Origin: Wenjunlia vitaminophila DSM 41686
Lineage (GTDB): Bacteria; Actinomycetota; Actinomycetes; Streptomycetales; Streptomycetaceae
Reading direction: 5' to 3'
Length of the DNA: 64,000 nucleotides
Assembly: GCF_000380165.1 (NCBI RefSeq)
Contig: NZ_KB904662.1
Coordinates: 1 to 64,000, forward strand
Both the position numbers and the translations under genes were made by a program. Below are positions 8,854 to 48,766 of the stretch, piece after piece. Every line of letters starts with the position of its first letter. Positions within the stretch are counted from its first letter, which is position 1. Below the pieces are notes generated by a model. It did no database searches. It saw only the letters and a list, made by a program, of their open reading frames with translations, and was not told where the DNA came from.

Positions 8854-8921
8854 TTCCACCGAAAGGGGCAATTTTCCCTGTTGCGCGGTGAACTCGAGGG
8901 CGTACCAGCACAATCGGCAGG

Positions 8922-10229: not shown

Positions 10230-10248
10230 ACAGTGAGCGAGGGTAGTC

Positions 10249-33904: not shown

Positions 33905-35605
33905 ATGGCCGACTCGACCAGGACCGCCACCGCCGAATCCGGCGCCGTCACCGAGCAGGAACGGGACGACGAGCTGCTCCAGGACGCCGAACGGCTGAGC
34001 AGCGCCCCCCGGGAGGAGGACCCCGGGGAGGGCCCCGGCCCGGTGGGCATCGGCCTGGTGGGCTGGCTGCGCTGGTTCTGGCGGCAGCTGACCTCGATGC
34101 GGGTCGCCCTGCTGCTGCTGTTCCTGCTCTCGATCGCCGCGATCCCCGGGTCGCTGGTCCCGCAGGAGGGCACGAGCGAGGGCCAGTTCAAGGTCCTGGA
34201 GTTCAAGGAGCAGCACCCGACGCTGGGGCCGCTCTACGATCGCCTGGGCCTGTTCGACGTGTACAGCTCCGCCTGGTTCTCAGCGATCTACATCCTGCTC
34301 TTCGTCTCCCTCGCCGGCTGCATCCTGCCGCGGAGCTGGCAGTTCTTCCAGGCGTTGCGCTCCAGGCCACCGGCCGCCCCGCGGAACCTCAGCCGGCTGC
34401 CGGTGCACACCACCTGGGAGACGGCCGTGGACCGCGACGAGGTGCTGGCCGCGGCGACGCGCATCCTGAAGCGGCGGCGGTTCCGGGCGCACCTCGGCGA
34501 CGGGGCGGTGGCCGCGGAGAAGGGCTACCTGCGCGAGGCCGGCAACCTGGTCTTCCACATCTCGCTGTTCGGGCTGCTGGTGGCCGTCGCCCTCGGGCAC
34601 CTGTTCAGCGCCTCGGGGAACAAGCTGGTGGTCGAGGGGGACGGGTTCGCGAACTCGCTCACCCAGTACGACGACTTCTCCTCCGGGCCGCTCTACGACG
34701 ACGAGGCGGACCTCGACGCCTTCGGCTTCACCCTGGACGACTTCAGGTCGGCGTTCGAGGAGTCCGGCAGCCAGCGGGGCACCGCCCGCAAGTTCGAGGC
34801 GGACCTTACCTACTGGACCGGCGACGGCGAGCGGACCAAGAAGACCACCATCAAGGTCAACTCACCGCTGAAGGTCGGCGGGACCAAGATCTACCTGGTG
34901 GGCTTCGGCTACGCCCCCGTGGTCACGGTCCGCGACGGTCAGGGCCAGGTCGCCTACCAGGGTCCGGTCGCCTGTCTCCCGCAGGACGCCAACACCACGT
35001 CCACCTGCGTGATCAAGGTTCCGGACTACGTGGACGAGAACGGGAAGAAGACCCAGCTCGGCTTCACCGGCACCTTCGTCCCCACCTTCGGCGGCGCCAC
35101 GGAGCGCGGCATGGTCTCCCAGTTCCCCTCGCTGAAGTTCCCGGCGCTCTTCCTCACCGCCTACCGCGGTGACCTGGGCATCGACTCGGGACTGCCGCAG
35201 AACGTCTACCAGCTCAAGACCAAGAACATGAAGCAGTTCAAGAAGGCCAACGGAGATCCGTTCGCCAAGTACCTGCTCCCCGAGGAGAAGATGGAGCTGC
35301 CGGGCGGGGCGGGGACGCTGGAGTTCACCGGGATCAAGGAGTACGCCCAGTTCGAGGTCAGTGAGAAGCCGGGCAAGGGGCTGGCGCTGGCCAGTGCCTC
35401 GCTGGCGTTGCTGGGACTGATCTGCTCGCTGTTCGTCCAGCGCCGCCGGGTGTGGGTCCGGGCGACCCCGACCGAGGGCGGCGGTACCGTCGTGTCGATG
35501 GCGGGGCTGGCCCGCAGTGAGTCGGCCAAGATCGCGGAAGAGCTCGCCGACATCGCCGTGGAACTGCACGACGACGCGGAGCCCAGCCGTTCGGAGAAGG
35601 AGTGA
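33905..35605 (+). CDS. resB: cytochrome c biogenesis protein ResB
   Basis: This 566-aa protein has an acidic cytoplasmic N-terminus (1-50), then TM segments near LTSMRVALLLLFLLSIAAIP, YILLFVSLAGCILPR and LVFHISLFGLLVAVALGHLF. A large exported domain follows (about 230-490) and a last TM ALASASLALLGLICSLFVQ. ResB/Ccs1 works with CcsB as the heme lyase of System II. It is encoded 3 nt after ccdA and 3 nt before ccsB. Confidence 0.94.
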   Translation: MADSTRTATAESGAVTEQERDDELLQDAERLSSAPREEDPGEGPGPVGIGLVGWLRWFWRQLTSMRVALLLLFLLSIAAIPGSLVPQEGTSEGQFKVLEFKEQHPTLGPLYDRLGLFDVYSSAWFSAIYILLFVSLAGCILPRSWQFFQALRSRPPAAPRNLSRLPVHTTWETAVDRDEVLAAATRILKRRRFRAHLGDGAVAAEKGYLREAGNLVFHISLFGLLVAVALGHLFSASGNKLVVEGDGFANSLTQYDDFSSGPLYDDEADLDAFGFTLDDFRSAFEESGSQRGTARKFEADLTYWTGDGERTKKTTIKVNSPLKVGGTKIYLVGFGYAPVVTVRDGQGQVAYQGPVACLPQDANTTSTCVIKVPDYVDENGKKTQLGFTGTFVPTFGGATERGMVSQFPSLKFPALFLTAYRGDLGIDSGLPQNVYQLKTKNMKQFKKANGDPFAKYLLPEEKMELPGGAGTLEFTGIKEYAQFEVSEKPGKGLALASASLALLGLICSLFVQRRRVWVRATPTEGGGTVVSMAGLARSESAKIAEELADIAVELHDDAEPSRSEKE

Positions 35606-35608
35606 GAC

Positions 35609-36706
35609 GTGTTCGTCGCCGCCGAGGTCAATGACAACCTCGCCCAGATCAGCAATGTGTTGATGTACTCGGCGATGGCCGTGTACACCCTGTCGTTCCT
35701 GGCCCACTGCATGGAGTGGGTGTTCGGCAGCCGCAGTCGGGTCGCGGTGCAGTCCGCGGCGCTGGCCGCGGCCTCCCGGGCGTCCGAGGCGGCGGAGGCG
35801 GCGAAGGCCTCGGCGGTCTCGGTGACGGTGGCGACCCGGGGCGGGGGCACCATGACGCTGGAGCGGCCCCGGGTGGTGACCCGGTCCGCCGGCCGCCCGG
35901 CGAAGGACGGGCCCGGTGCCGCCGGCACCGACCAGCGGGCCGACGTGCTGGGCCGGATGGCGGTCTCCCTGACCGCGCTGGCCTTCGTGCTGCACTTCGG
36001 TTCCGTGGTGGCGCGCGGGGTCTCGGTCCAGCGTCCGCCGTGGGGCAACATGTACGAGTTCTCCACCGCGTTCTCGCTGATGGCCGTCGGCACCTACCTG
36101 GGCCTGCTCCTCGCCAAGCGGCCGGTGCGCTGGCTCGGCCTGCCGGTGACCACGGCGGTGCTGCTCGACCTCGGCCTCGCGGTGAGCGTGCTGTACACCG
36201 AGTCGGACCAACTGGTGCCGGCCCTGGACTCGTACTGGCTGTGGATCCACGTCTCCACGGCGATCATCTCCGGCGCGGCCCTGTACCTGGGCGCGGTGGC
36301 GGCCGTGCTGTACCTGTTCAAGGACCGTTACGAGGCGGCGCGGCTGGCGGGACGCGACGGCGGGCGGCTCGCCACCGTCTGGCAGCGCCTCCCCTCCGCG
36401 GCATCCCTGGACAAGTTCGCCTACCGGGTCAACGCGCTGATCTTCCCGCTGTACACGTTCGCGATCATCGCCGGGGCGATCTGGGCGGAGGCCGCGTGGG
36501 GCCGCTACTGGGGCTGGGACCCCAAGGAGATCTGGTCCTTCGTCACCTGGGTCGGCTACGCCGCCTACCTGCACGCCAGGGCCACCGCCGGCTGGAAGGG
36601 CCGCCGGGCCGCCTACCTGGCCCTGATCGCCTTCGCCTGCTTCCTGTTCAACTACTACGGCGTCAACATCTTCATCACCGGCAAGCACTCCTACGCGGGA
36701 GTCTGA
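35609..36706 (+). CDS. ccsB: cytochrome c biogenesis protein CcsB (ResC)
   Basis: This 365-aa polytopic heme-handling protein starts with GTG. The tryptophan-rich WWD signature is WGRYWGWDPKEIWSFVTW near residue 296. Conserved His-containing segments are LHFGSVVARGVSVQRPPWGN and YFLTGKHSYAG-like GVNIFITGKHSYAGV at the end. A long Ala/Glu/Lys linker (about 50-100) separates TM1 from the rest. It pairs with ResB to deliver and attach heme outside the membrane. Confidence 0.94.
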   Translation: MFVAAEVNDNLAQISNVLMYSAMAVYTLSFLAHCMEWVFGSRSRVAVQSAALAAASRASEAAEAAKASAVSVTVATRGGGTMTLERPRVVTRSAGRPAKDGPGAAGTDQRADVLGRMAVSLTALAFVLHFGSVVARGVSVQRPPWGNMYEFSTAFSLMAVGTYLGLLLAKRPVRWLGLPVTTAVLLDLGLAVSVLYTESDQLVPALDSYWLWIHVSTAIISGAALYLGAVAAVLYLFKDRYEAARLAGRDGGRLATVWQRLPSAASLDKFAYRVNALIFPLYTFAIIAGAIWAEAAWGRYWGWDPKEIWSFVTWVGYAAYLHARATAGWKGRRAAYLALIAFACFLFNYYGVNIFITGKHSYAGV

Positions 36707-36792
36707 CCCGGACCGTCACCGGCCGCCGTCGGGTCCGCCCGGCGGCGGCCGGTTCGCGTCCGGGCGGGGAGCCCGCGCGGGCCCGCCGGCGC

Positions 36793-37098
36793 TCAGTGGG
36801 TGTCGTCCTCGTCCCGCTTCTTCTCCAGGGACCTGAGGAACTCGGGATTGTCGTCCGGGGCCACGAACCCGCCGGAGCCCGCCGGGCGGGGACCGAGGCG
36901 GGGAGCGAAGCCGCCGCGCTCGCGACCGGCGATCAGCCAGGCCACAGGTCCGATCAGCACCGTGCCGAACAGCAGGACGATCAGGACCCAGGCGACCTTG
37001 GGCAGGTGCCGCACCTTGTCCTCCGGCGTGGTCAGGCAGTCGATGAACGCGTAGGTCCACAACGCCAGGACCAGCAGGATCGGCAGATACCTGGTCAT
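36793..37098 (-). CDS. small membrane protein with PLD-nuclease N-terminal (PLDc_N) domain
   Basis: This 101-aa protein starts with ATG after GAAGGA. Two TM helices: TRYLPILLVLALWTYAFIDC and VAWVLIVLLFGTVLIGPVAW. A linker KVRHLPK lies between, the PLDc_N arrangement. The C-terminal 40 residues are charged and disordered (NPEFLRSLEKKRDEDDTH). Function unknown. It is divergent from the UbiD-like gene and found beside it in other actinomycetes. Confidence 0.85.
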   Translation of the reverse strand: MTRYLPILLVLALWTYAFIDCLTTPEDKVRHLPKVAWVLIVLLFGTVLIGPVAWLIAGRERGGFAPRLGPRPAGSGGFVAPDDNPEFLRSLEKKRDEDDTH

Positions 37099-37205
37099 GG
37101 TGGTCACCGGTCCTTCGTGAGTGGGGGTCTGGCCGGAGTCGCGAGGGGCCGGAGGATGGCCCCTGCCGTCCGGTCCAGGGTAGTCGGTGTCGGATACTGA
37201 CACCT

Positions 37206-38657
37206 ATGGCATACGACGATCTTCGGGGGTTCCTGCGGGCGCTGGAGCGGGACGGCGACCTGAAACGTGTGAAGGCCGAGGTCGATCCCCACCTGGAGGT
37301 GGGGGAGATCGTGGACCGGGTGAACAAGGCCGGCGGCCCCGCCCTGCTCTTCGAGAACGTCCGGGGATCGGACATGCCGCTGGCGATGAACGTGTACGGC
37401 ACGGACCGCCGACTGCTCAAGGCCCTGGGACTGGCCTCCTACACCGCACTGGGCGACAAGATCGCCGGACTGGTCAGACCGGAGCTCCCCCAGGGCTTCA
37501 CCGGGATCAGGGAGGCGTTCGGCAAGCTGGCCGGGGTGTCCCACGTGCCGCCGAAGAAGGTCAAGGACGCCCCCGTCCAGGAGGTGGTGGTCACCGGGGA
37601 CCAGGTGGACCTGGACCGACTGCCCGCGCTGTTCACCTGGCCGAAGGACGGCGGGTCCTTCTTCAACCTCGGCCTCACCCACACCAAGGACCCGGACACC
37701 GGGGTGCGCAACCTCGGCCTGTACCGGCTCCAGCGGCACGACTCCCGCACCATCGGGATGCACTGGCAGATCCACAAGGACTCCAGGAACCACTACCAGG
37801 TGGCCGCCCGGCGCGGTGAGCGACTGCCCGTGGCCATCGCCTTCGGGTGCCCGCCGGCCGTCACCTACGCCGCCACCGCCCCGCTGCCCAGCGACATCGA
37901 CGAGTACCTGTTCGCCGGGTTCGTGCAGGGCAAGCGGGTGGAGATGGTGGACTGCCGGACCGTTCCGCTCCAGGTGCCGGCCAACGCCGAGGTGGTGCTC
38001 GAGGGCTGGCTCGAACCGGGACGGATGCTCCCCGAGGGGCCGTTCGGCGACCACACCGGCTTCTACACCCCGCAGGAGCCCTTCCCCGCGCTGCGCATCG
38101 ACTGCGTGACCAGCAGGCGCCGTCCGCTGTTCCAGTCCATCGTGGTCGGCCGGCCGCCGACCGAGGACGGGCCGCTGGGCAAGGCCACCGAACGGTTCTT
38201 CCTCCCGCTGCTGAAGGTCGTCGTGCCGGACGTGGTGGACTACGACCTGCCCGAGGCCGGCGCCTTCCACAACTGCGCCATCGTCTCCATCGACAAGCGC
38301 TACCCCAAGCACGCCCAGAAGGTGATGCACGCCATCTGGGGGGCGCACATGATGTCGCTGACCAAGCTCATCATCGTCGTGGACGCCGACTGCGACGTCC
38401 ACGACTACCAGGAGGTCGCCTGGCGGGCCTTCGGCAACGTGGACTACGCCCGCGACCTGCTGCTCACCGAGGGGCCGGTGGACCACCTCGACCACGCCTC
38501 CTACCAGCAGTTCTGGGGCGGCAAGGCGGGCATCGACGCCACCGCCAAGCTGCCCGAGGAGGGCTACACCCGGGACGGCGGTTGGCCGGAGATGATCGTC
38601 TCCGATCCGGCCACCGCCGAGCTGGTCGCCAGACGCTGGCACGAGTACGGCCTTTGA
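37206..38657 (+). CDS. UbiD-family decarboxylase, menaquinone (futalosine) pathway
   Basis: This 483-aa enzyme is of the prenylated-FMN-dependent UbiD family. It starts YDDLRGFLRALERDGDLKRV. Landmarks: NLGLYRLQRHDSRTIGMHWQ, EMVDCRTVPLQVPANAEVVL, EGPFGDHTGFYTPQEPFP and AIVSIDKRYPKHAQKVMHAI. It should decarboxylate the prenylated naphthoate intermediate late in menaquinone synthesis. The cofactor maker UbiX is encoded 6 kb away at 44797, with mqnP next door. This fits the futalosine-pathway gene set known in Streptomyces. Confidence 0.92.
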   Translation: MAYDDLRGFLRALERDGDLKRVKAEVDPHLEVGEIVDRVNKAGGPALLFENVRGSDMPLAMNVYGTDRRLLKALGLASYTALGDKIAGLVRPELPQGFTGIREAFGKLAGVSHVPPKKVKDAPVQEVVVTGDQVDLDRLPALFTWPKDGGSFFNLGLTHTKDPDTGVRNLGLYRLQRHDSRTIGMHWQIHKDSRNHYQVAARRGERLPVAIAFGCPPAVTYAATAPLPSDIDEYLFAGFVQGKRVEMVDCRTVPLQVPANAEVVLEGWLEPGRMLPEGPFGDHTGFYTPQEPFPALRIDCVTSRRRPLFQSIVVGRPPTEDGPLGKATERFFLPLLKVVVPDVVDYDLPEAGAFHNCAIVSIDKRYPKHAQKVMHAIWGAHMMSLTKLIIVVDADCDVHDYQEVAWRAFGNVDYARDLLLTEGPVDHLDHASYQQFWGGKAGIDATAKLPEEGYTRDGGWPEMIVSDPATAELVARRWHEYGL

Positions 38658-38670
38658 GTCAGGAGGCAGT

Positions 38671-39591
38671 GTGAGCACCAAGTCAGTGACCGAGGGGCTG
38701 GTGGGCCCGGAGCCACGCCCCGGTCGGCTGCGCGCGTTCCTGCGGGTGGTGAAGATCGAGCACTCGATCTTCGCCCTCCCGTTCGCCTACATCGGCTGCC
38801 TCACGGCCATGCTGCTCGACGACGAGTCGGTGCACTGGGCGGAACTGGGCCTGGTGACCGTCGCCATGGTGGGGCTGCGCACCTTCGCCATGGCGGCCAA
38901 CCGGATCATCGACCGGGAGATCGACGCGCGCAACCCCAGGACCGCCGGCCGCGAACTGGCCACCGGCGCGCTGTCCGCGCGCAGCGCCTGGGTCGGGGCG
39001 CTGGTCGCCATGGTGGTCTTCCTCGGTGCCGCAGCGCTGCTCAACCCGCTGTGCCTGGCGCTCTCGCCCCTGGCCGTGCTGCCCATGGTGGTCTACCCGT
39101 ACGGCAAGCGGTTCACCGACTACCCCCACGCCATCCTCGGCCTGGCCCAGTCGATCGGCCCGATCGGTGCCTGGTTCGCGGTCACCGGCGCCTGGTCCTG
39201 GGACCCGGTCCTGCTGGGCATGGCGGTGGGCATCTGGATCGGCGGCTTCGACCTGATCTACGCCTGCCAGGACGTGGCCGCCGACCGCACCCAGGGGGTG
39301 CGCAGCGTCCCCGCCCGGTTCGGGGTGGCGGGCGCGCTGGTCGGCGCGCGGGTCTGCCACGCGGTCACGGCGGTGCTGTTGGTGTGGTTCGGCGTCGCCA
39401 CGGACGCGGGCGTCGCGTGGTGGGTGGGCGTCGTGGTGGTCGTGGTGGGGCTGGTCTACGAGCACACGCTGGTCAGGCCGGACGACCTGTCCCGGGTCAA
39501 CCAGGCCTTCTTCACCGTGAACAGCGTGATCGGCGTGGCGCTCTTCGCGTTCGCCCTGCTCGACCTGGTCCTGCGCGGCCTGCGCGGCTGA
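38671..39591 (+). CDS. mqnP: menaquinone prenyltransferase MqnP (UbiA family)
   Basis: This 306-aa polytopic membrane enzyme starts with GTG. The two Mg-diphosphate motifs are MAANRIIDREIDARNPRTAG (NxxxDxxxD) and YACQDVAADRTQGVRSVPAR (DxxxD). The start KIEHSIFALPFAYIGCL is typical of UbiA/MqnP. It attaches the polyprenyl chain in the futalosine pathway. It lies 13 nt after the UbiD-like gene and shares its operon. The next gene downstream belongs to the antiporter cluster rather than to the pathway. Confidence 0.93.
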   Translation: MSTKSVTEGLVGPEPRPGRLRAFLRVVKIEHSIFALPFAYIGCLTAMLLDDESVHWAELGLVTVAMVGLRTFAMAANRIIDREIDARNPRTAGRELATGALSARSAWVGALVAMVVFLGAAALLNPLCLALSPLAVLPMVVYPYGKRFTDYPHAILGLAQSIGPIGAWFAVTGAWSWDPVLLGMAVGIWIGGFDLIYACQDVAADRTQGVRSVPARFGVAGALVGARVCHAVTAVLLVWFGVATDAGVAWWVGVVVVVVGLVYEHTLVRPDDLSRVNQAFFTVNSVIGVALFAFALLDLVLRGLRG

Positions 39592-39701
39592 GGCGGGGGC
39601 GTCCCCCGCGCTGGCCCTTATGGGTTAGGGACCGTGCGTGTCCCGCACGGCCTGGTGCCCGGTGACGGCGGCCGTTGGCATCGTGGCGGTGAGGTGAGTG
39701 C

Positions 39702-40184
39702 ATGATCTCCGTTCTCGAAGTCACCTGGTGGTGGGGGACGTGCGTGGGCGTCTGGCTCGTCACGTTGTCGTCGGTGACACCGGCCGAGCTCGCGGTGGCC
39801 ACCGTGTGCGGTCTGCCCTGCGCGGTGGCCGCACGAGTGGTGCGCAAGGCGGTCCGGGGGCGTTGGCGTCCGCGCCTCCGCTGGTGTTCCTGGGCGGTGG
39901 CGCTCCCCGCCTCGGTGGTGGTGGACACCGTGCGGGTGTTCCAGCAGGCGGCCCGCCGCTCCTGGCACCGACGCCGGCCGGAGGCCGAGGGCACGTGGAG
40001 GCGGACGCCACTGCCGGAGGACGTCGAGGGGGCCACCGCGGCTGCCCGTCGGGCCCTGGCCACGCTGGCGATCTCCGCCACACCCGGGACCTACGTGGTG
40101 GACGGTGACCGCTCCGGGCCGCACCTGCTGGTCCACTCCCTGACCGCGTCGCCCAGCCGGACGGAGCGGGTGATCGCCCGGTGA
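39702..40184 (+). CDS. mnhE: Na+/H+ antiporter subunit E (MnhE/MrpE)
   Basis: This 160-aa protein has two or three TM helices near the N-terminus (VTWWWGTCVGVWLVTLSSVT and SWAVALPASVVVDTVRVFQQ). The cytoplasmic half ends TPGTYVVDGDRSGPHLLVHS, the MnhE signature of a small domain with TPG(T)...D. It is first in a seven-gene cluster E-F-G-D'-B-C-D. Its stop overlaps the next gene. It begins 110 nt after mqnP. Confidence 0.88.
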   Translation: MISVLEVTWWWGTCVGVWLVTLSSVTPAELAVATVCGLPCAVAARVVRKAVRGRWRPRLRWCSWAVALPASVVVDTVRVFQQAARRSWHRRRPEAEGTWRRTPLPEDVEGATAAARRALATLAISATPGTYVVDGDRSGPHLLVHSLTASPSRTERVIAR

Positions 40185-40444
40185 ACGCCTGGCTGTGGTG
40201 CGCCAACGTGTTGTTGGCGGGTGGCCTCGGCCCGGCCGCCTGGCTGGGGATGCGCGGCGATCCGGTCCGCCGGCTGGTGGGGTTGGAACTCGGCGGGGTG
40301 GTGGCGACCCTGTTGCTCCTGGTGTTCCCCCAGGCACTCGGCCAACCGTCGTACCTCATCGTGCCGCTGGTCATGGCCCTGCTCACCTTCGTCGGCACGC
40401 TGGTCTTCACCCGGCTCCTCGCACCGCGACCGGCCGGAACATGA
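40181..40444 (+). CDS. mnhF: Na+/H+ antiporter subunit F (MnhF/MrpF)
   Basis: This 87-aa protein starts with GTG and has three TM helices. The conserved middle RGDPVRRLVGLELGGVVATL corresponds to the MrpF RGP(S)..DRVxALD region, and the C-terminus is FVGTLVFTRLLAP. The acidic residue usual in TM2 appears as Glu in GLELGG. GTGA and ATGA overlaps couple it to mnhE and mnhG. Confidence 0.85.
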   Translation: MNAWLWCANVLLAGGLGPAAWLGMRGDPVRRLVGLELGGVVATLLLLVFPQALGQPSYLIVPLVMALLTFVGTLVFTRLLAPRPAGT

Positions 40445-40740
40445 CGGCCGAGGACGTCCGGCACGTGGTGGCGGTCGGCCTGGCCGCGGCCGGCACCGGG
40501 GTCGTGGTCCTCTCGGCCCTGGCCGCGCTGACCATGCGCGAGGTCTACGGAAGGCTCCACTTCCTCACACCGGTCACGTCGCTGGGCGCGCCGCTGATCG
40601 GCGTGGCGCTGGCGGTCGAGAACGGATGGGGGTTGACGGCCGCGCTGGACCTGCTCACCGCCGGGCTGCTGACGGTGACCGGGCCGGCGCTCGCAGCGGC
40701 CACGGGCAGGGTGGCGGCGCACCACGACGGCCTGCGGTGA
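40441..40740 (+). CDS. mnhG: Na+/H+ antiporter subunit G (MnhG/MrpG)
   Basis: This 99-aa protein starts with ATG at 40441, overlapping the mnhF stop. The signature MREVYGRLHFLTPVTSLGAP matches the MnhG/MrpG R-x-x-D/V-x-x-RLH conserved block. Three TM helices. In-frame extension upstream to 40195 is shadow of mnhF. It is needed for assembly of the antiporter complex in characterised Mrp systems. Confidence 0.88.
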   Translation: MTAEDVRHVVAVGLAAAGTGVVVLSALAALTMREVYGRLHFLTPVTSLGAPLIGVALAVENGWGLTAALDLLTAGLLTVTGPALAAATGRVAAHHDGLR

Positions 40741-40749
40741 GGGGTCCAG

Positions 40750-41022
40750 GTGACCCCCCTGATCGTCATGTCCCTCGCCCTCGTCGCGGTGTTGGGTACC
40801 GCGGTGGTCCTGACGAACGAGCCCGAGCGGCAGGCGGTCACGCTCTCGCTGTTCGGGCTCTCCCTCACCGTTCTGTTCGTCGTCCTCCAGGGGCCCGACG
40901 TCGCGTTGTCCCAGCTCGGGGTGGGGGCGGCGGTGGTGCCGTTGATGGTGATGCTGGCCATCCGCCGGATGCGGCGTGACCAGGAGCGGGAGGCGGACGG
41001 CCGCGGGGAGGCCGGGGAATGA
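40750..41022 (+). CDS. MbhD/DUF4040-type antiporter subunit (MrpB N-terminal-like)
   Basis: This 90-aa protein starts with GTG, has three TM helices and a charged tail. The DUF4040 signature is LFVVLQGPDVALSQLGVGAA, corresponding to the conserved (A)PDVALTEAxVGAG block found in the C-terminal part of MrpA and in MbhD. Its Glu is replaced by Gln in SQLGVG, which is unusual. Here it is a stand-alone gene, as in archaeal Mbh clusters. It overlaps the next gene by 4 nt. Confidence 0.82.
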   Translation: MTPLIVMSLALVAVLGTAVVLTNEPERQAVTLSLFGLSLTVLFVVLQGPDVALSQLGVGAAVVPLMVMLAIRRMRRDQEREADGRGEAGE

Positions 41023-41777
41023 GCAGCCGCGGCCGGCTCGCCCTGTTCCTGCTGGGTGCCGCGGGTGTGGCGGTGCTGTTCGCGACGGCCTTCCTCGGCA
41101 TGCCCGCCTTCGGGAGCGAGGACCACCCCTACCGGGACCTCGCCGTTCCCGCCGCGGTGCGGCACGCCACCGCCAACGTCGTGTCCTCGGTCAACTTCGA
41201 CCAGCGGGGCATCGACACCTTCGGGGAGGAGACCATCGTCCTCGGGTCGGTGATCGGTGTGGCGGCACTCCTGCGCCCCGCCCAGCGGGAGAGCGAGCAG
41301 CGCCCGCCGCCGGACCGGCACAGGCTGGAATCGACGACCCTGCTCGGGTACGTGCTGCTGCCCGTGACGCTGGTCGTCGGCCTCGACGTCGTGGCACACG
41401 GGCACGTCTCACCCGGCGGGGGCTTCCAGGGAGGCGTCATCCTGGCGACCGGGTTCCACCTGCTCTACCTGGCGGGGAGCTACCAAGCCCTGGCCCGGCT
41501 GCGGCCCGTGGAGATCTTCGACCGTGGTGAGGCGCTCGGTGCCGGCCTGTTCGGCGTGCTCGGCGCGGCCGGCCTCGCGGCGACCGGAGCCTTCCTCGCC
41601 AACGTCATCCCCACCGGATCGTTCGGCCAACTGTTCTCGGGCGGAACGGTCCCCGTTCTCAACGTGCTGGTGGGGCTGGAGGTGAGCTGCGGCGCCGTGG
41701 TCCTGCTCACCCACTTCTTCACCGAGGCCATCACCCTCTCGGTGGGCGGCCGGCGGGAGCGGGGAGGCGGCACGTGA
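41019..41777 (+). CDS. mnhB: Na+/H+ antiporter subunit B (MbhE + MnhB)
   Basis: This is a 252-aa protein in two parts. Residues 1-90 resemble MbhE (NVVSSVNFDQRGIDTFGEET, the conserved DFRGxDTLGE block). Residues 105-252 are MnhB (GLDVVAHGHVSPGGGFQGGV followed by ILATGFHLLY). The HxSPGGGFQGG block is diagnostic of MrpB. Six or more TM helices. ATGA-type overlap on both sides. Confidence 0.9.
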   Translation: MSSRGRLALFLLGAAGVAVLFATAFLGMPAFGSEDHPYRDLAVPAAVRHATANVVSSVNFDQRGIDTFGEETIVLGSVIGVAALLRPAQRESEQRPPPDRHRLESTTLLGYVLLPVTLVVGLDVVAHGHVSPGGGFQGGVILATGFHLLYLAGSYQALARLRPVEIFDRGEALGAGLFGVLGAAGLAATGAFLANVIPTGSFGQLFSGGTVPVLNVLVGLEVSCGAVVLLTHFFTEAITLSVGGRRERGGGT

Positions 41778-42121
41778 ACCTGTACGCCTACGGGGTCGCC
41801 GGCTGGCTGCTGCTGGTCGGAGCGTTCGGCGTCGTCCGCAGCGCCAACCTGGTGCACGCCGTCGTGTCGTTGTCCGTGGCCCAGTCGGGCACCTACGTGC
41901 TGCTGCTGTGCGTCGGCTACCAGAGGGCCGCCGGCGCGCCGGTCTTCGGCTCGACGCTCCGGCCCAGCACACGGGTGACCGATCCGGTGGTGCAGGCGAT
42001 GACCCTCACGGACATCGTCGTCTCCGCGACCGTCACCGCGCTGCTGTTGGCCACCGCCGTCCAGGTGCACAAGCAGCAGGGCACCGTGGACCCCAACCGG
42101 CTGTCCGCGCTGAAGGGCTGA
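41774..42121 (+). CDS. mnhC: Na+/H+ antiporter subunit C (MnhC, NuoK-like)
   Basis: This 115-aa protein starts with GTG and has three TM helices. The NuoK/MnhC signature runs RSANLVHAVVSLSVAQSGTY and continues through TRVTDPVVQAMTLTDIVVSA, with the DPVxQAMxLTDIVI block diagnostic for MrpC. It sits between mnhB and the large antiporter-like subunit and overlaps the former by 4 nt. Confidence 0.93.
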   Translation: MNLYAYGVAGWLLLVGAFGVVRSANLVHAVVSLSVAQSGTYVLLLCVGYQRAAGAPVFGSTLRPSTRVTDPVVQAMTLTDIVVSATVTALLLATAVQVHKQQGTVDPNRLSALKG

Positions 42122-42123
42122 CG

Positions 42124-43974
42124 GTGACGTCGGGAACCGCCGCGCACCTGATGCCCCTCGCCATCGCCGTCCCGGTGCTGGTGGCCTGTCTCATGGTCGC
42201 CGCGGGAAGCAGGTTGCCGCACCACGTGCTCGACCTCCTGGGCGTCGCCACGTCGCTCACGGTGTGTGCCCTGGCGGCGGTCGTGCTGACGCGGTCCGCC
42301 GACGGCCGCGTCGTCACCTGGAACGGCGACTGGCGGCCGAAGCGGGGGGTCAGCGTCGGCATCCCCCTCGTCGCCGACAGCCTCAGCGCCGGAACGGCCC
42401 TGCTGATCGCCGGACTGATGAGCTGCGCGCTGCTGTACAGCTGGCGCTACTACTCCCCGGTGCGCGGCTACTACCACGCGCTGATGCTCCTGTTCCTCGC
42501 CGGCATGGAGGGGTTCGTGCTCTCCGGCGACCTGTTCGACATGTTCGTCTTCTTCGAGCTCATGGGCATCGCCGCGTACGCGCTCACCGGCCTCAAGATC
42601 GAGGACCCCACGGCGGTCCAGGGCGGCCTCAACTTCGGCATCGTCAACTCCCTCGGCGCCTACTTCTCCCTGGCGGGCATCGGCGTCCTGTACGCCAGGC
42701 ACGGGCAGCTCGGCCTCGCACCGCTCGGCCAGCGGCTCACCGAACACCGGGCCGACGCGCTGACCGTCGTGGCGCTGGTGGTCATCGTCACCTGCTTCCT
42801 GGTGAAGGCGGCCGTCGTGCCCTTCCACTTCTGGCTGCCGGACGCGCACGCGGTGGCGCCCGCGCCGGTGTGCGTGCTGTTCTCCGGAGTGATGGTCGAA
42901 CTCGGCCTCTACGGTGCGTTCCGGGTCTTCTGGACGGTCTTCGGGAGCGCGGTGCCGCACGACGACATCCGCGGCGCCTTCCTCCCGGCCGGGGTGCTCA
43001 CCGCGGTGGTGGGCGCCCTGATGTGCTTCGCGCAGAGCCACCTCAAGCGCATGCTGGCCTACTCCACCATCGCCCACGTCGGCCTGTTCACGACCGGGCT
43101 CGCCACGCTCACCCCCGAGGGCACCGCGGGCGTGGCGTTGTACGCGGCAGCGCACGCGGGGGTCAAGTCCGCCCTGTTCCTGCTGGTCGGCGTCATCCTG
43201 GCCAGACACGGACACGTGGACGAGCTGAAGCTGCACGGCTGCGGCAGGGACGCCCGGTTCGTGTCCTGGCTGTACTTCGCCGCGGGCGCCGCCCTGGCCG
43301 GGCTCCCCCCGTTCGGCACGGCCCTGGGCAAGTCGGTGACCGAGGAGGCGCTGACCAGGGCGGGACACCCGTGGGGGCCCGCGGTGTTCGTGGCCGTCTC
43401 AGCCCTGACCGGCGGGGCCGTCCTGCGGGCGGGCTTCCGCATCTACCTGGGGGCGGGCCCGGCACCCGACGCCGGCGGCCCGGTCGCGATCGCTGCGCAG
43501 ACCACCGGAATCGAGGAGCACCGGGAGACCGAGCAACTGAGCCGCACACCGCGCACCATGTACGCGGCGGTCCTCCTGCTGCTGGCGGGCGGTCTGGCCG
43601 TCGGCGTGCTCCCCGGCGCCGGCCGAGCCTTCGACCACGCCGCGGAGGGCTTCACCGACCCCCGGGGCTACGCCGCGGCGGTCCTGTTCGGAACGGCCCC
43701 CGCGGTGGGCTCCCCGCACCACGAGTCGACGTGGACCGCGCAGGGCGTGGTCCTCGGGTGCGTGTCCACCGCGGCTGCGGTCCTCCTCGCCGCCGCGGCC
43801 GTCCGGGCGCCGCGGGCACCGGACGCACGCCGGGCCCGGCTCCGCCCTTTCCTGCGCTCCCTGGCCGCCGTGCGGGCACTGCACTCCGGACACGTCGGTG
43901 ACTACGCCGCCTGGCTCCTGTTCGGCATGACCGCGCTGGCCGCGCTGGTCGGGGTCCTCCCAGTTGACGGCTAA
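42124..43974 (+). CDS. mnhD: proton-conducting antiporter subunit D (MnhD/ND2-ND4-ND5 family)
   Basis: This is a 616-aa protein with about 14 TM helices. The conserved Glu is in DMFVFFELMGIAAYALTGLK and the channel Lys in TCFLVKAAVVPFHFWLPDAH. LKRMLAYSTIAHVGLF and the later Lys in AHAGVKSALFLLVGVIL complete the proton path. GTG at 42124 follows AAGGG. It is the only large antiporter-like subunit: no MrpA/ND5 homologue is in the cluster. Its TAA shares bases CTAA with the stop of the converging rhomboid gene. Confidence 0.92.
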   Translation: MTSGTAAHLMPLAIAVPVLVACLMVAAGSRLPHHVLDLLGVATSLTVCALAAVVLTRSADGRVVTWNGDWRPKRGVSVGIPLVADSLSAGTALLIAGLMSCALLYSWRYYSPVRGYYHALMLLFLAGMEGFVLSGDLFDMFVFFELMGIAAYALTGLKIEDPTAVQGGLNFGIVNSLGAYFSLAGIGVLYARHGQLGLAPLGQRLTEHRADALTVVALVVIVTCFLVKAAVVPFHFWLPDAHAVAPAPVCVLFSGVMVELGLYGAFRVFWTVFGSAVPHDDIRGAFLPAGVLTAVVGALMCFAQSHLKRMLAYSTIAHVGLFTTGLATLTPEGTAGVALYAAAHAGVKSALFLLVGVILARHGHVDELKLHGCGRDARFVSWLYFAAGAALAGLPPFGTALGKSVTEEALTRAGHPWGPAVFVAVSALTGGAVLRAGFRIYLGAGPAPDAGGPVAIAAQTTGIEEHRETEQLSRTPRTMYAAVLLLLAGGLAVGVLPGAGRAFDHAAEGFTDPRGYAAAVLFGTAPAVGSPHHESTWTAQGVVLGCVSTAAAVLLAAAAVRAPRAPDARRARLRPFLRSLAAVRALHSGHVGDYAAWLLFGMTALAALVGVLPVDG

Positions 43975-44597
43975 CTGCGGCGGAAGACGAACGGAGCAGC
44001 CACCCCGCCCAGCAGGCCGAACAGGTGCCCCTGCCAGGAGATCCCGCTGTCCGTGGGGAGCACGCCCCACAGGATCGAGCCGTAGAGGACGGCCACGCCC
44101 ACGCCCACCACGACGTCCAGCACCTTGCGGTCCACGAAGCCGCGCACCAGCAGGTAGCCGAAGAGACCGAAGATCAGGCCGCTGGCCCCGGCCGTGTTGG
44201 TGTTGGCGGGGGCGACCAGCCACACCCCGACACCGCTGGCCACGATGATGAACGTGGCCACCGCGAAGAACCGGCTCAGCCCCCGCGCGGCGGCGAGGAA
44301 CCCCAGCACCAGCAGCGGCACCGAGTTGGCCGCCACGTGGTCGTAGCCGAAGTGCATGAACGACGCCGGGATCACGTCGGCCAGCTCACCCACCTGGCGC
44401 GGGACTATGCCGTACTGGTCGAGCCGGTGGTCCCGGGCCGTGTCCACCGCCTCGAGCAACCACAGCAGCCCCACCCAGAAGCTCATCAGCAGCGCGGCGG
44501 CGCGCACGTCGGCCAACCCGCCGCGCAGCGAGCGGCGGGCCGGGGCGGGACGACGACCGGTGAAGGACGACGGGTCGTACGACGGCTGGTGGGCCAC
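43971..44597 (-). CDS. rhomboid-family intramembrane serine protease
   Basis: This protein is about 208 aa and starts with GTG after AAGGGGGA. Six TM helices. The catalytic Ser is in TAGASGLIFGLFGYLLV (GxSG) and the catalytic His in SWQGHLFGLLGGVAAPF. The HFGYDHVAANSVPLLVLG segment is the conserved HxxxxHxxxN block in TM2. It cleaves substrates within the membrane. Its end overlaps the convergent mnhD by 4 nt with no terminator between. A longer start at 44633 is possible. Confidence 0.9.
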   Translation of the reverse strand: MAHQPSYDPSSFTGRRPAPARRSLRGGLADVRAAALLMSFWVGLLWLLEAVDTARDHRLDQYGIVPRQVGELADVIPASFMHFGYDHVAANSVPLLVLGFLAAARGLSRFFAVATFIIVASGVGVWLVAPANTNTAGASGLIFGLFGYLLVRGFVDRKVLDVVVGVGVAVLYGSILWGVLPTDSGISWQGHLFGLLGGVAAPFVFRRS

Positions 44598-44796
44598 TGC
44601 ATTCCCCCTTGACGGCGTGGGTGACGGCCTCAACGGTGCTGACGGAGCCCCCCCGGGTGGTGAGGGACGTCACGGGCGGGATCTTCGGTTCGGGTGGACG
44701 TCGCGGGTCGGTGTCCTTCCACGGTAGGGAACGACGGGGAGGTCTGTCCTTGTTCCGGTCGGGAAGTCCCGCGCCGCGCCGGATAGGCTCGACCGT

Positions 44797-45480
44797 GTGG
44801 AGCGGGACAACAGGAGCACCGGGGGGGACGGCGGGCGCCGGCCCTGGGTCGTCGGGGTCTCGGGAGCCTCGGGGACGCCCTACGCCGCCGCCGTGGTCCG
44901 CGCCCTGCTGCACGCGGGGGAGGCGGTGGACCTGGTGGTGAGCCGGGCGGCCAGGCTCACCATCCTCGACGAGACCGGGGCCCCGTTCCGGGACGCGCAC
45001 TGGCGCGCCGACCTGGCCCGGTGGCTGGGCACCGACGCCTCGGGGGCGCCGACGCCCGAGCCTGACCTGGACTCCGTCCGCCACTGGTCCCCCGGGGACC
45101 TGGCGGCGGGCCCGTCCAGCGGCTCCTACCCGGCCCGCGGGATGCTCGTCGTCCCGGCGAGCACCGCGGCCGTCGCCGGGATCGCCCTGGGGCTGTCCAA
45201 GGACCTGTTGCAGCGCACGGCGAGCGTGACCCTCAAGGAACGCCGGCCGCTGGTGGTGGTGGTGCGGGAGACGCCGCTCGCCGGCCAGACGCTGCGCCAC
45301 CTGGTCACCCTGGACGAGGCCGGCGCGGTGGTGCTGCCCGCCGCACCGGCGTTCTACGCCGGTGCCCGGGGTATTCAGGACCTCGTGGACTTCGTCGCCG
45401 GCAGGACGCTGGACGCGGTCGGGGTGCCACACAAGCTGTACCGCAGGTGGGAGGGGGACATCGGGGGCGGTCGCGCGTAG
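44797..45480 (+). CDS. ubiX: flavin prenyltransferase UbiX
   Basis: This 227-aa protein starts with GTG. FMN-binding N-terminus: WVVGVSGASGTPYAAAVVRA. Prenyl site: VVPASTAAVAGIALGLSKDL with LQRTASVTLKERRPLVVVVR ETPL. C-terminus: FVAGRTLDAVGVPHKLYRRW. It makes prenylated FMN for the UbiD-like decarboxylase at 37206. In Streptomyces it follows mqnP directly; here the antiporter operon and rhomboid gene separate them. Confidence 0.95.
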   Translation: MERDNRSTGGDGGRRPWVVGVSGASGTPYAAAVVRALLHAGEAVDLVVSRAARLTILDETGAPFRDAHWRADLARWLGTDASGAPTPEPDLDSVRHWSPGDLAAGPSSGSYPARGMLVVPASTAAVAGIALGLSKDLLQRTASVTLKERRPLVVVVRETPLAGQTLRHLVTLDEAGAVVLPAAPAFYAGARGIQDLVDFVAGRTLDAVGVPHKLYRRWEGDIGGGRA

Positions 45481-45536
45481 CGGAGCCCGGAGGTGAGACC
45501 CGCGCAACGGCGAGGAACGGAAGGCTTGGCAGACAC

Positions 45537-45989
45537 ATGGACGCGGTGGACAGGCAGCTCATCCAGGCGCTGCGGGAGAACGGCAGGGCGTCCTACGCCG
45601 AACTGGGACGGCTGGTGGGGCTCTCCGGTCCCAGTGTCACCGACCGGATCAACCGTCTGGAACAGGCCGGGGTGATCACCGGCTACCGGGCCACGGTCGC
45701 CCCGGCCGCGCTCGGGCTCGGTGTCACCGCCCTGGTGGGGGTGCAGCTCACCACCGCCGCCGACCACGAGGAGGTGGCCAGGAGGCTCCGGGACCTGGCG
45801 GAGATCGAGGACTGCTGGTTCATCGCCGGCGACGACTCGTTCATGCTCAAGGTGCGGGTCGGCGACGTGGACGGTCTCGAGCGGACCATCCACCGGCTGT
45901 CCGGCACCAAGGGCGTCTCCCGCACCCGGACCACCGTGGTGCTCTCCACCAAGTGGGAGAGCCGGGTCGGGGAGGTCCCGCAGGTCTGA
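45537..45989 (+). CDS. Lrp/AsnC-family transcriptional regulator
   Basis: This 150-aa protein has an N-terminal HTH, MDAVDRQLIQALRENGRASY with LGRLVGLSGPSVTDRINRLE. The C-terminal RAM ligand-binding domain includes GVTALVGVQLTTAADHEEV and DCWFIAGDDSFMLKVRVGDV. The ATG at 45537 follows GAGGAACGGAAGG at some distance. Its place between ubiX and mqnE is the same as in Streptomyces, which suggests it monitors an amino acid or pathway intermediate and controls menaquinone genes. Confidence 0.93.
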   Translation: MDAVDRQLIQALRENGRASYAELGRLVGLSGPSVTDRINRLEQAGVITGYRATVAPAALGLGVTALVGVQLTTAADHEEVARRLRDLAEIEDCWFIAGDDSFMLKVRVGDVDGLERTIHRLSGTKGVSRTRTTVVLSTKWESRVGEVPQV

Positions 45990-46149
45990 GCCGGCCCGTC
46001 GCGCGGGGGCGCCGCCCCGGTGGCGTAGGCTCGCCTGAGCCGGTCGCGGACCGGACCCGCCGGCTCGGCCGGGCCCCGGACGGACGGGGTACGCGGGCGC
46101 GGCGCGGGTTCCGGGCGCGACGCTGAACTGGTGGGCACAGGGAGGCCAG

Positions 46150-47313
46150 ATGGACGCCGGGCTCAAGCGGGAGCTGGAGGAGAAGGTCAACGCGGGGGAG
46201 CGGTTGTCCCGCGAGGACGGCATCGCGCTGTACGAGTCCGACGACCTGGCCTGGCTGGGCGGGCTCGCCCACCAGGTGCGCACCCGCAAGAACGGTGACG
46301 CGGTCTACTTCAACGTCAACCGCCACCTGAACATGACCAACGTGTGCAGCGCCTCGTGCGCCTACTGCTCGTTCCAGCGCAAGCCGGGCGAGAAGGACGC
46401 GTACACCATGCGGATCGAGGAAGCGGTCCGGCTGGCCAAGACCATGGAGAGCGAGCACCTCACCGAGCTGCACATCGTCAACGGGCTCCACCCGACCCTG
46501 CCCTGGCGGTACTACCCCCGTTCCCTGCGGGCGCTGAAGGAGGCGCTGCCGCAGGTGTCGCTGAAGGCGTTCACCGCCACCGAGATCCAGTGGTTCGAGA
46601 AGATCTCCGGGCTGCCGGCGTCGGAGATCCTCGACGAGCTGATCGACGCCGGCCTCGAGTCGTTGACCGGCGGCGGCGCGGAGATCTTCGACTGGGAGGT
46701 CCGCCAGCACATCGTGGACCACGCCTGCCACTGGGAGGACTGGTCGCGCATCCACAGGCTGGCGCACTCCAAGGGGCTGAAGACGCCGAGCACCATGCTC
46801 TACGGGCACATCGAGGAGCCGCGGCACCGGGTGGACCACGTGCTCAGGCTGCGTGAGCTCCAGGACGAGACCGGCGGCTTCCAGGTCTTCATCCCGCTCC
46901 GCTACCAGCACGACTTCCACGACTCCAGGGACGGCAAGGTCCGCAACCGGCTCCAGGAGCGCACCACCATGGCCACCGGGGTGGAGGCGCTGAAGACGTT
47001 CGCGGTCTCCCGGCTGCTGTTCGACAACGTCCCCCACGTGAAGGTCTTCTGGGTGATGCACGGCCTGTCCACCGCGCAGCTCGCCCTCAACCACGGTGCC
47101 GACGACATGGACGGGTCGGTCGTGGAGTACAAGATCACGCACGACGCGGACAACTTCGGCACCCCGGCCAAGCTGACCCGGGAGGACCTCCTCGAGCTGA
47201 TCCGGGACGCCGGTTTCCGACCGCTGGAGCGCAACACCCGCTACGAGGTGATCCGCGAGTTCCCGGGTCCTGACCCGGACCGCCGCGAGTCCCCGCAGCC
47301 CATGCGGGTGTGA
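46150..47313 (+). CDS. mqnE: aminofutalosine synthase MqnE
   Basis: This is a 387-aa radical SAM enzyme. The [4Fe-4S] motif CxxxCxxC is in NVCSASCAYCSFQRKPGEKD. Downstream blocks: EHLTELHIVNGLHPTLPWRY, SLTGGGAEIFDWEVRQHIVD and KTPSTMLYGHIEEPRHRVDH. It joins the 5'-deoxyadenosyl radical to the enolpyruvyl benzoate made with MqnA, the entry steps of the futalosine pathway. GGGAGG precedes the ATG. Expressed after the Lrp-type gene. Confidence 0.97.
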   Translation: MDAGLKRELEEKVNAGERLSREDGIALYESDDLAWLGGLAHQVRTRKNGDAVYFNVNRHLNMTNVCSASCAYCSFQRKPGEKDAYTMRIEEAVRLAKTMESEHLTELHIVNGLHPTLPWRYYPRSLRALKEALPQVSLKAFTATEIQWFEKISGLPASEILDELIDAGLESLTGGGAEIFDWEVRQHIVDHACHWEDWSRIHRLAHSKGLKTPSTMLYGHIEEPRHRVDHVLRLRELQDETGGFQVFIPLRYQHDFHDSRDGKVRNRLQERTTMATGVEALKTFAVSRLLFDNVPHVKVFWVMHGLSTAQLALNHGADDMDGSVVEYKITHDADNFGTPAKLTREDLLELIRDAGFRPLERNTRYEVIREFPGPDPDRRESPQPMRV

Positions 47314-47383
47314 TCCCGGCCGCCGGTGTCCGTCCCGTGGACCGTGGAGGGGCCACGCGGACGGGGCAGGTACCGTCGGTTCC

Positions 47384-47902
47384 ATGGGACTGACGTTCGA
47401 GATGGATCCGGAGCTCACCCCGGAGCTGCGGGACCAGGTCGTCTCCGTCTGGACCGACGTGTCGAACGCGGACGGCGCGGTGGGCTTCGTGCCGCCGGTT
47501 GCCGAGGACGACGTGCGGCCCACGGCGGAGAAGCACTTCGCGGCCATGGCCGCCGGCCGCACACGGCTGCTCGCCGCCTGGGACGGGGACAAGCTGGTGG
47601 GCACCGCCTTCTTCTCCTTCAACGACCACCCACTGATGACCCACTGGTGCTGGCTCTACACGGTGATGCTCCACCCGTCCCGGCAGGGAGAGGGCGAGGG
47701 GAGCAGGCTGCTGCGGGAGGCGGAGCGCCAGGGCCGGCGGATGGGCCTGGAGTCGTTCCGCCTCACCTGCCGGGGCGGCACCGGCCTGGAGCGGTTCTAC
47801 GCCTCCGTCGGGTACCGCGAGGTCGGCCGGGTGCCCGCCGCGATCCGGGTGGCGCCCGGCGACGACAGGGACGACGTCATGATGTGGCTCGACCTGCGCT
47901 GA
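47384..47902 (+). CDS. GNAT-family N-acetyltransferase
   Basis: This 172-aa protein contains an acetyl-CoA loop LHPSRQGEGEGSRLLREAER and a C-terminal GTGLERFYASVGYREVGRVP, typical of GNAT domains. An acidic insertion, TDVSNADGAVGFVPPVAEDD, lies near the N-terminus. It follows mqnE by 70 nt on the same strand but is probably not part of menaquinone synthesis. Substrate unknown. Confidence 0.88.
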   Translation: MGLTFEMDPELTPELRDQVVSVWTDVSNADGAVGFVPPVAEDDVRPTAEKHFAAMAAGRTRLLAAWDGDKLVGTAFFSFNDHPLMTHWCWLYTVMLHPSRQGEGEGSRLLREAERQGRRMGLESFRLTCRGGTGLERFYASVGYREVGRVPAAIRVAPGDDRDDVMMWLDLR

Positions 47903-47970
47903 GGGCCACGGACCGGCCGTGCTTCACTGGAAGGCGGCCGGGTTCGCCGAGAACGAGAGAAGTAGCCGCC

Positions 47971-48297
47971 GTGAGCACCGTGACACCCACCAAACACGCC
48001 GCGCTCCGCTACACCGGAATGCGTCTGGGGATCTTCGTCCTGTGTTTCCTCGTCGTCTGGCTGCTCGCCTACGTCGAGGTCATCGAGGTCAACGGGGCCG
48101 AGGGGACGGTACTGCTGATCGGCGTCGCCGCCCTGCTCTCCGCGCCGATCAGCTACGTGGTGCTGAGCCGGCAGCGCGACGCGATGTCGGAGGAGATCGT
48201 GGACAAGGTCACCCAGACCAAGCGGCGGCTGGCCGAGGACCGCACCCGGGAGGACGCGGCGCAGGACGCCGACCGGCTCCGGCCCCAGAAGAGCTGA
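47971..48297 (+). CDS. small two-TM membrane protein (DUF4229-like)
   Basis: This 108-aa protein starts with GTG after GAGAAG. Helices: MRLGIFVLCFLVVWLLAYVE and GTVLLIGVAALLSAPISYVV. A charged C-terminal helix follows: LSRQRDAMSEEIVDKVTQTK. It matches the DUF4229 arrangement common in actinobacteria, often near menaquinone genes. Function unknown. Confidence 0.85.
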   Translation: MSTVTPTKHAALRYTGMRLGIFVLCFLVVWLLAYVEVIEVNGAEGTVLLIGVAALLSAPISYVVLSRQRDAMSEEIVDKVTQTKRRLAEDRTREDAAQDADRLRPQKS

Positions 48298-48597
48298 CCC
48301 GCCGGCCACCGACCCACCGCGAGCAGCGGAACGACCGCGTCGCACGCCGCCCACCAGTGGTCGGAGGTGGCCGACCTGTGTCGGACAGCGACACTCAGGT
48401 CCCTGAGCCTCGGCTCGGAGGGCGTCAGCACCCCCACCTGACGGCTGTGGGCCCACCGTCATCCCTGCTGGAACGGGGATGCGAACTCCTCGCTCGGGGA
48501 CGACGCCACCTGGGGCGACCCGGACGACGAATCCCGGTGGTGCGCCGCGCCCGTGCTCGGGCGGGCCCGCCCCGGAAGACCATCTCAAAGTATTGCT
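48298..48597. other. gene-free stretch before the leader-peptide promoter
   Basis: About 300 bases without a convincing reading frame on either strand. It contains short GC-rich dyads only. It may hold the terminator of the small membrane-protein gene, but no strong hairpin was found. Confidence 0.4.
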
Positions 48598-48627
48598 TTG
48601 ATGAACCCAAAGCCTCAGTGGTAATCT
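48598..48627 (+). promoter_or_regulatory. promoter of the leader peptide / symporter transcript
   Basis: TTGATG (48598-48603) and TAATCT (48622-48627) are separated by 18 nt, a good vegetative-type promoter in an otherwise GC-rich setting. The expected start site, about 7 nt after the -10, falls at about 48634, directly at the ATG of the leader ORF (48635). The mRNA would therefore be leaderless. Confidence 0.6.
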
Positions 48628-48634
48628 CCACGGC

Positions 48635-48736: not shown

Positions 48737-48766
48737 GTCCGCGCCCCGCCCCGGCGTTGTCGTCAC

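Follow-up and report, generated by a model that had tools for sequence, protein, structure and literature searches.

Can an Mrp-type complex do without MrpA, the subunit that in canonical complexes unites an ND5-like domain with DUF4040, and if so, where would its ion-coupling carboxylate lie? The question is raised by an operon in Wenjunlia vitaminophila DSM 41686, within positions 1 to 64,000 of the forward strand of contig NZ_KB904662.1 (this whole stretch of 64,000 nucleotides is called the window here), which a sequence-only reading had described as a seven-subunit Mrp/Mbh-type antiporter without an MrpA/ND5 subunit. From its gene content, the absence of MrpA from the assembly, the distribution of its relatives and their residue changes, all of which were observed directly, we judge with moderate confidence that its seven products make up a free-standing Mrp-type complex of group 3 (MrpA-independent) with no redox module, most likely a secondary cation/H+ antiporter coupled through an aspartate of MrpC, Asp80.

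The operon consists of seven intact frames on the + strand (39702-43974), overlapping or a few bases apart, in the order mrpE-F-G-DUF4040-(MbhE/MnhB fusion)-C-D with a single large subunit. MrpE (MbhA-like, 160 aa, 39702..40184) matches Pfam MNHE (9.7e-10, above the cut-off), MrpF (MbhB-like, 87 aa, 40181..40444) matches MrpF_PhaF (9.4e-10) and aligns with 6z16_F, and MrpG (MbhC-like, 99 aa, 40441..40740) matches PhaG_MnhG_YufB (2.6e-9). They are followed by a stand-alone DUF4040 protein (MbhD-like, 90 aa, 40750..41022; Pfam MbhD, 1.1e-13) that could be aligned to 6cfw_D, 6u8y_D and 7qru_A, by the MbhE-MnhB fusion (252 aa, 41019..41777; MnhB, 8.4e-23), by MrpC (MbhG-like, 115 aa, 41774..42121; Oxidored_q2, 2.6e-15) and by MrpD, with an MbhH-like core (618 aa, 42118..43974, start codon TTG at 42118; Proton_antipo_M, 8.8e-54). 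All seven families pass the Pfam cut-off; only the MbhE portion of the fused protein stays below it (E 6.6e-5, 23.3 bits against a 27-bit cut-off), but it is supported by the alignment of residues 51-225 with the fused Pyrococcus MbsE (6u8y_E, E 1.5e-21, 80 bits). The subunit count and order, the stand-alone DUF4040, the fusion of MbhE to MnhB and the single large subunit had all been called correctly from the sequence, but the coordinates given with them, 40441-43974, were too short, leaving out mrpE and mrpF although both were named. A promoter and terminator scan returned nothing exceeding shuffled controls.

The lack of MrpA holds for the whole assembly (6.43 Mb, 111 contigs, 99.21% complete), in which the DUF4040/MbhD profile PF13244 and the MnhB profile each gave one match, both inside the operon; the search for a distant mrpA thus found none, and there is no second MnhB domain. 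On these single matches, an mrpA elsewhere in the assembled genome was rejected. The antiporter-type profile PF00361 has ten matches, and the other nine sit in three nuo-type clusters with NuoL/M/N-like proteins, one complete (contig C39, L014) and two partial (C80, L013; C51, L012), the set on C51 being highly divergent, with long branches in the large-subunit tree described below. That this is nonetheless an ordinary Mrp, with a split MrpA that has lost its ND5-like half or with an mrpA that escaped notice, is extremely improbable: a gap between the 111 contigs, or in the missing fraction of the assembly, could conceal a gene, but besides the single PF13244 match, the MrpD falls outside the canonical clade (support for that clade 100), the DUF4040 has Gly where all 16 aligned canonical domains have Glu, and only one of the 62 genomes with a short-frame DUF4040, among 150 searched, also has a long-frame one.

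The term group 3 has been used in two ways. Haja & Adams 2021 (PMC8415708) apply it to Mrp complexes without MrpA, with a stand-alone example in Pyrococcus, and PMC5703873 to loci with every subunit, including MrpA, in irregular order. The window operon has no mrpA, mrpD as its only large subunit, and E, F, G, DUF4040, MbhE, B, C and D domains, and so belongs to group 3 in the first sense; lacking MrpA, it belongs neither to group 3 in the second sense nor to canonical groups 1/2, whose MrpA combines the ND5-like domain with DUF4040.

The bacterial MrpA-less complex is a family trait and not a peculiarity of this genome. Among 150 genomes of the same family (Streptomycetaceae), 85 have a DUF4040 match, in a long frame of the MrpA type (at least 871 aa) in 24 genomes, in a short frame (at most 330 aa) in 62, and in both in one; every one of the 20 short-frame loci that we read carries the same operon. 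The best 80 of at least 493 relatives from a scan of genome contigs include loci from Streptomyces, Mycobacterium, Micromonospora, Nocardia, Amycolatopsis and Sinomonas, and further ones from Planctomycetota, Acidobacteriota, Rhodospirillales, Methylobacterium, Gluconacetobacter and others, the last few being Mbh-like. By the labels of the tree, the stand-alone family spans at least four phyla (Actinomycetota, Acidobacteriota, Planctomycetota and Pseudomonadota). The order of the operon on one strand is identical in all 94 stand-alone-type loci checked, of which 70 have all seven subunits, 20 have no separate MrpG match and four have no MrpE match. In a subset of Streptomyces (L078, L087, L088, L089 and others) MrpF and MrpG are apparently fused, the MrpF frame being about 140-150 aa long with no separate MrpG match.

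Because this order is the same in all 94 loci the operon is no chance assembly, and its retention across at least four phyla argues for selection and not decay. We therefore consider it very improbable that the window holds a decaying, non-functional remnant. Such a remnant might have been suspected from its MrpF, which has Ile at residue 60 where 64 of 81 actinomycete rows keep Asp, and from two related loci with split frames (mrpC in L090, mrpD in L103), which may reflect sequencing error or decay; against this stand the seven intact, overlapping or adjacent frames, the kept catalytic residues of MrpD, and the recurrence of Ile or Val at that MrpF place in 16 of the 81 rows.

Where does the family belong? 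A tree of 118 large subunits, 47 of them stand-alone rows and with seven of the many Streptomycetaceae loci, was built with groups assigned beforehand from profile scores and residue patterns, so that the grouping depends in part on resemblance between MrpD sequences. In it, all 47 stand-alone rows fall together in a single clade (SH-aLRT 100, stem 1.11), separate from canonical MrpD (22 rows including two PDB chains, 100), MrpA (20 rows, 100), Mbh/Mbs (18 rows, 91) and NuoL/M/N. With this clade of its own at support 100, MrpD is placed by the tree neither inside canonical MrpD nor inside Mbh/Mbs; neither of the outcomes named beforehand as telling against the sequence-only reading, a separate mrpA or a position inside ordinary Mrp, occurred. 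Trees constrained to make the family sister to Mbh/Mbs or to MrpD both improved on the likelihood of the quick tree, by 17.4 (p-AU 0.855) and 17.0 (p-AU 0.779), so that either group is allowed as sister. The small subunits point toward Mbh/Mbs: MrpC scores 58 and 49 bits against solved Mbs/Mbh chains and 40 and 38 against solved Mrp chains, DUF4040 scores 30.7 and 28.8 against 22.2 and 17.9, and the best PDB scores are to MbsG/MbhG for MrpC, MbsD/MbhD for DUF4040 and MbsE for fused B. The proposal that the operon mirrors the antiporter half of Mbh therefore stands for its gene order, its small-subunit scores and the MbhI-like tail described next, but not for MrpD, which the tree does not place inside Mbh/Mbs. 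Judged from these sequences, the large subunit of this bacterial family forms a well-supported clade apart from both canonical MrpD and Mbh/Mbs.

At 618 aa, this MrpD is longer than the 490-493 of Bacillus-type MrpD chains in the PDB and the 574 of the Dietzia chain. Its AlphaFold2 model (pLDDT 81.7) superposes on Bacillus pseudofirmus MrpD (7qru_D) over residues 6-523 in VIA-align (Z 37.9, rmsd 3.0, 470 residues aligned), and its matches to NuoL extend to residue 602. The C-terminal ~110 aa (43639..43971, +) would form helices at 541-563, 569-587 and 593-613, two of membrane length flanking a basic one. Eleven of 16 homologous tails match NCBIfam MbhI, at best with 1.7e-4, while the window's own tail is unmatched, and the top PDB match of the tail profile is 6cfw_I (MbhI), a weak one (E 0.11). 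A strict MbhI pattern, set before the comparison, occurs in 57 of 97 stand-alone frames and in none of 20 canonical MrpD; a looser one that fits 90 of 90 complete frames was written after the tails had been viewed and run on the stand-alone family only, and is a description. A moderately firm reading is that the operon corresponds to the whole set MbhA to MbhI, E being joined to F and H to I, and that the redox part J-N is absent.

In Mbh, MbhI contributes HL, a short helix next to the one antiporter-like subunit, and joins the antiporter and hydrogenase parts (PMC7684303). This linking role could be taken to mean that the tail is a dock and that the operon supplies the membrane arm of a redox complex, with catalytic genes at another locus, among the partial nuo clusters or in an orphan NuoD-like gene, since the genome has the two partial clusters beside the complete one and a second NuoD-like gene. 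We think this unlikely. The window contains no membrane-anchored hydrogenase-type module of the MBH/MBS J-N kind, and the genome's matches to the hydrogenase and 49-kDa families are of soluble sulfhydrogenase type, NuoD and the orphan NuoD-like gene. Only one hydrogenase large subunit turned up, and it belongs to the soluble NAD(P)-dependent sulfhydrogenases; the NuoD-like gene adjoins methyltransferase and PH-domain genes and not a hydrogenase set, and no redox gene recurs beside the operon in other genomes. Clustering the neighbours of 97 loci gave for the most part a mixture of chromosomal genes, among which a short-chain dehydrogenase type was the most frequent, at 22 loci; Pfam searches with 20 immediate neighbours from 19 loci revealed no pattern (three had no family) and no hydrogenase or complex-I-type catalytic subunit. 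A conserved partner gene was accordingly rejected. As to their positions, the orphan gene lies at L238 5993-7579 (contig C68), and the [NiFe] hydrogenase set at L239 ~4883-10979 (contig C46), beside frames that resemble, by eye, HypD, HypC and HypF.

Residue counts for the ion path refer to 109 distinct loci besides the window (the window, its copy L177, L100 and L129 were dropped as copies), with states taken from alignments to the family's own profiles and equivalences drawn from PDB alignments and from structure papers (PMC7419157, PMC9568556); of the 20 canonical control loci, four gave no DUF4040 alignment and 13 no MrpF alignment. The sequence-only reading had singled out a Gln in place of the usual acid of the DUF4040 helix (VALSQLGVG). 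That residue, Gln55 (codon 40912-40914), is indeed present at the place of MbhD Glu69 and MbsD Glu58, but it is unusual only relative to them: Gln55 with Glu59 is the normal state of MrpA, seen in all 16 canonical domains that aligned among the 20 fetched, and Glu55 is seen in 16 of 17 Mbh-like controls. What sets the window apart is that Gly59 (codon 40924-40926) occupies the place of MrpA Glu687, so the acid typical of canonical Mrp is absent as well. By these alignments, the change from Glu to Gln alone is not telling; it is that both DUF4040 acids are missing. Gln55 is likewise a family trait: in 97 of 108 loci neither residue 55 nor residue 59 is an acid, and Glu55 occurs in 11 and Glu59 in none.

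In MrpC an acid has been added. Asp80 (codon 42011-42013) lies on helix 3 between Thr79, equivalent to Thr75 of A. flavithermus, and Ile81, equivalent to Ile77 of B. pseudofirmus, so that residues 79-80-81 correspond to 75-76-77. Residue 80 is Asp in 108 of 109 loci and Asn in the other, and Asp in none of 18 Mbh-like loci, 20 canonical loci or five PDB chains; the preceding Thr is invariant (147 of 147 rows). MrpC Thr75 points toward the exit acid and has been reported essential at high salt (PMC7419157), and Ile77 of MrpC with Val686 of MrpA forms a hydrophobic block between two proposed Na+ sites, which Na+ crosses in a way that the 2022 structure paper calls unclear (PMC9568556). By alignment, then, this family has an Asp within the block and has lost the acid belonging to the first site. 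A third change is in helix 8 of MrpD, where the window has Glu261 (codon 42898-42900) in place of a Lys that is present in all 20 canonical controls, in 14 of the 17 Mbh-like ones and in none of 107 family members (Glu 79, Pro 12, Ala 5, Gln 4, Ser 3, Asp 2, Gly 1, Val 1). Other elements are kept: the TM5 Glu of MrpD in 109 of 109 loci, the TM7 Lys in all 108 read, and Asp66 with Glu70 of fused B in 108 of 109. The window itself retains Glu147, Lys230, His346, Lys350 and Lys405 of MrpD and Asp61, Asp66, Glu70 and Phe136 of fused B, and its MrpF has Glu at residue 36, the place of A. flavithermus Asp35 and B. pseudofirmus Asp38. Taken as they stand in the alignments, the ion path seems to have been rewired family-wide. 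The earlier suggestion that ion specificity may be altered can be kept, on what is now a sharper basis: throughout the family the DUF4040 acid tends to be missing, and MrpC has a near-invariant new Asp.

How might such a complex work? We infer that protons would pass through the single MrpD channel, by way of the Glu147/Lys230 pair, Lys350 and Lys405, and that a monovalent cation would cross at the MrpC/DUF4040/MnhB interface and exit via the kept Asp66 and Glu70 of fused B. The coupling carboxylate would be Asp80 on MrpC helix 3 and not an acid on the DUF4040 helix, and the MbhI-like tail of MrpD may take the clamp role that the helix-HL element of Mbh, Mbs and MrpA has next to their antiporter-like subunits. 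That an MrpA-free architecture can work is indicated by the free-standing Mrp of Pyrococcus furiosus, which has neither MrpA nor an energy-input module and yet uses Na+ and helps in the response to pH (PMC8415708). It is tempting to go further, and tentatively we suggest that this is a distinct bacterial branch of the Mrp/Mbh/complex I superfamily which has moved its ion-coupling carboxylate into the barrier, from the DUF4040 helix onto MrpC helix 3, giving an antiporter with one proton channel, a shorter path, perhaps a cation other than Na+, and no energy-input subunit. If so, the 11 of 108 members with both acids would be stages of that move.

Several observations weigh against the proposal of an Asp80-coupled cation antiporter. 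Those same 11 loci mean that Asp80 predates full loss of the DUF4040 acid. The usual cation ligands are largely neutral, which could mean that there is no Na+ transport at all: the DUF4040 Glu is gone, and the MrpC ligands, His37/His40 in Mrp or Asp37/His41 in Mbh, have become Gln37/Ser38/Tyr41; residue 37 is Gln in 104 of 108 loci, and Glu (15), Asn (2) or Asp (1) in the 18 Mbh-like rows. Residue 36 of MrpF, Asp in seven of seven aligned canonical rows, is Glu in 19 and neutral in 89 of 108 loci, a change that is also unspecific, since 13 of 16 Mbh-like controls have Asn. The helix-8 Glu occurs as well in three of the 17 Mbh-like controls; Mbh-like actinobacterial loci that have it (L196, L202, L203) keep the DUF4040 Glu and have no MrpC Asp80. 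The match to MbhI is, as noted, weak for any single tail. Finally, given the low quality of the predicted MrpC structure (pLDDT 68.7), Asp80 was positioned by sequence alignment.

Some of these points would fit a proton-only module whose cation ligands have been neutralised, with a complex-I-like E-channel in which Asp80 is a relay, acting as a regulated proton path or a pH device: the DUF4040 acid, the usual ligand at MrpC residue 37 and the helix-8 Lys have been lost almost throughout, and the proton-relay residues are kept. Complex I, however, moves protons without E, F and G subunits, and here the proposed cation-entry part, MrpE/MrpF/MrpG, is kept along with the exit acids Asp66 and Glu70, so that we regard this alternative as rather unlikely, and prefer the cation/H+ antiporter.

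Comparison with known systems places the operon among them without making it equivalent to any. The stand-alone P. furiosus mrpEFGBB'CD likewise has no MrpA, no energy-input module, one MrpD and the order E-F-G-(DUF4040/B)-B-C-D, but there DUF4040 and MbhE are fused and MnhB is separate, whereas here DUF4040 is separate and MbhE and MnhB are fused; moreover, several of its ion-path residues are described as conserved with MBH/MBS (PMC8415708), and set against that description the present family differs by its lost DUF4040 acid, lost helix-8 Lys and new Asp80. With MBH/MBS (6cfw, 6u8y) the operon shares the order A-B-C-D-E-F-G-H-I, the E+F fusion of MbsE and the resemblance of its tail to MbhI, but it is without J-N, has the MbhI-like part fused to a large subunit in its own clade, has Gln for MbhD/MbsD Glu69/Glu58, and adds MrpC Asp80. 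With canonical Mrp of groups 1/2 (6z16, 7qru, 7d3u) it shares subunits B-G, the MrpD fold (Z 37-39), the TM5 Glu, the TM7/TM12 Lys and the exit acids, but it lacks the MrpA N-domain, its DUF4040 stands alone without Glu, its helix-8 Lys is replaced, and it has Asp80. The Nitrospira 'group 3' Mrp, mrpA-G with extra NuoL/M-like genes (PMC7784846), is unlike it.

The history of the locus can be followed in the congener G008, the sole other genome of the genus compared, where the gap between ubiA and a rhomboid gene is 65 bp (L227 3340-3404) and that in the window, with the operon, is 4388 bp (39590..43977, +; blastn of window 35001-49000 against L227). The two flanking genes belong to a futalosine-type menaquinone cluster and mark a clean presence/absence site. 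In the tree, the window MrpD groups with Mycobacterium, Micromonosporaceae, Sinomonas, Nocardia and Pseudonocardiaceae (11 rows, support 98) and not with the seven rows from Streptomycetaceae, and the best BLAST match of each of the seven subunits is outside the 20 same-family loci, although the second-best match of MrpD, Streptomyces L101, scores only one bit less than the first (549 and 550). On these comparisons, a gain of the operon by transfer is likelier than a loss, without being proven. A fixed link to menaquinone synthesis, as the position between ubiA and rhomboid/ubiX could suggest, was rejected, given the congener without the operon and the 20 same-family stand-alone loci, within ~8 kb of which (the stretch at L084 is shorter) there is no ubiD, ubiA, ubiX, mqnE, ccsB or rhomboid gene.

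An MrpA-less Mrp is already in print as group 3 (PMC8415708); new here are the bacterial clade, the MbhI-like tail and the family-wide rewiring of residues, and in the open-licence literature we found no title or abstract describing this bacterial branch and no study of group 3 in Streptomyces. What drives an Mrp that has no MrpA has been stated to be unknown (PMC8415708). Having a single proton channel and no MrpA, and with a new acid in the barrier where the classical coupling acid has gone from DUF4040, the family offers a natural experiment on that force as well as on the crossing of the barrier, and as its hosts are aerobic and cultivable, such a minimal antiporter should be open to expression and mutation. 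The family is relevant, too, to the way in which antiporter modules of the Mbh kind gave rise to respiratory complexes or were shed from them.

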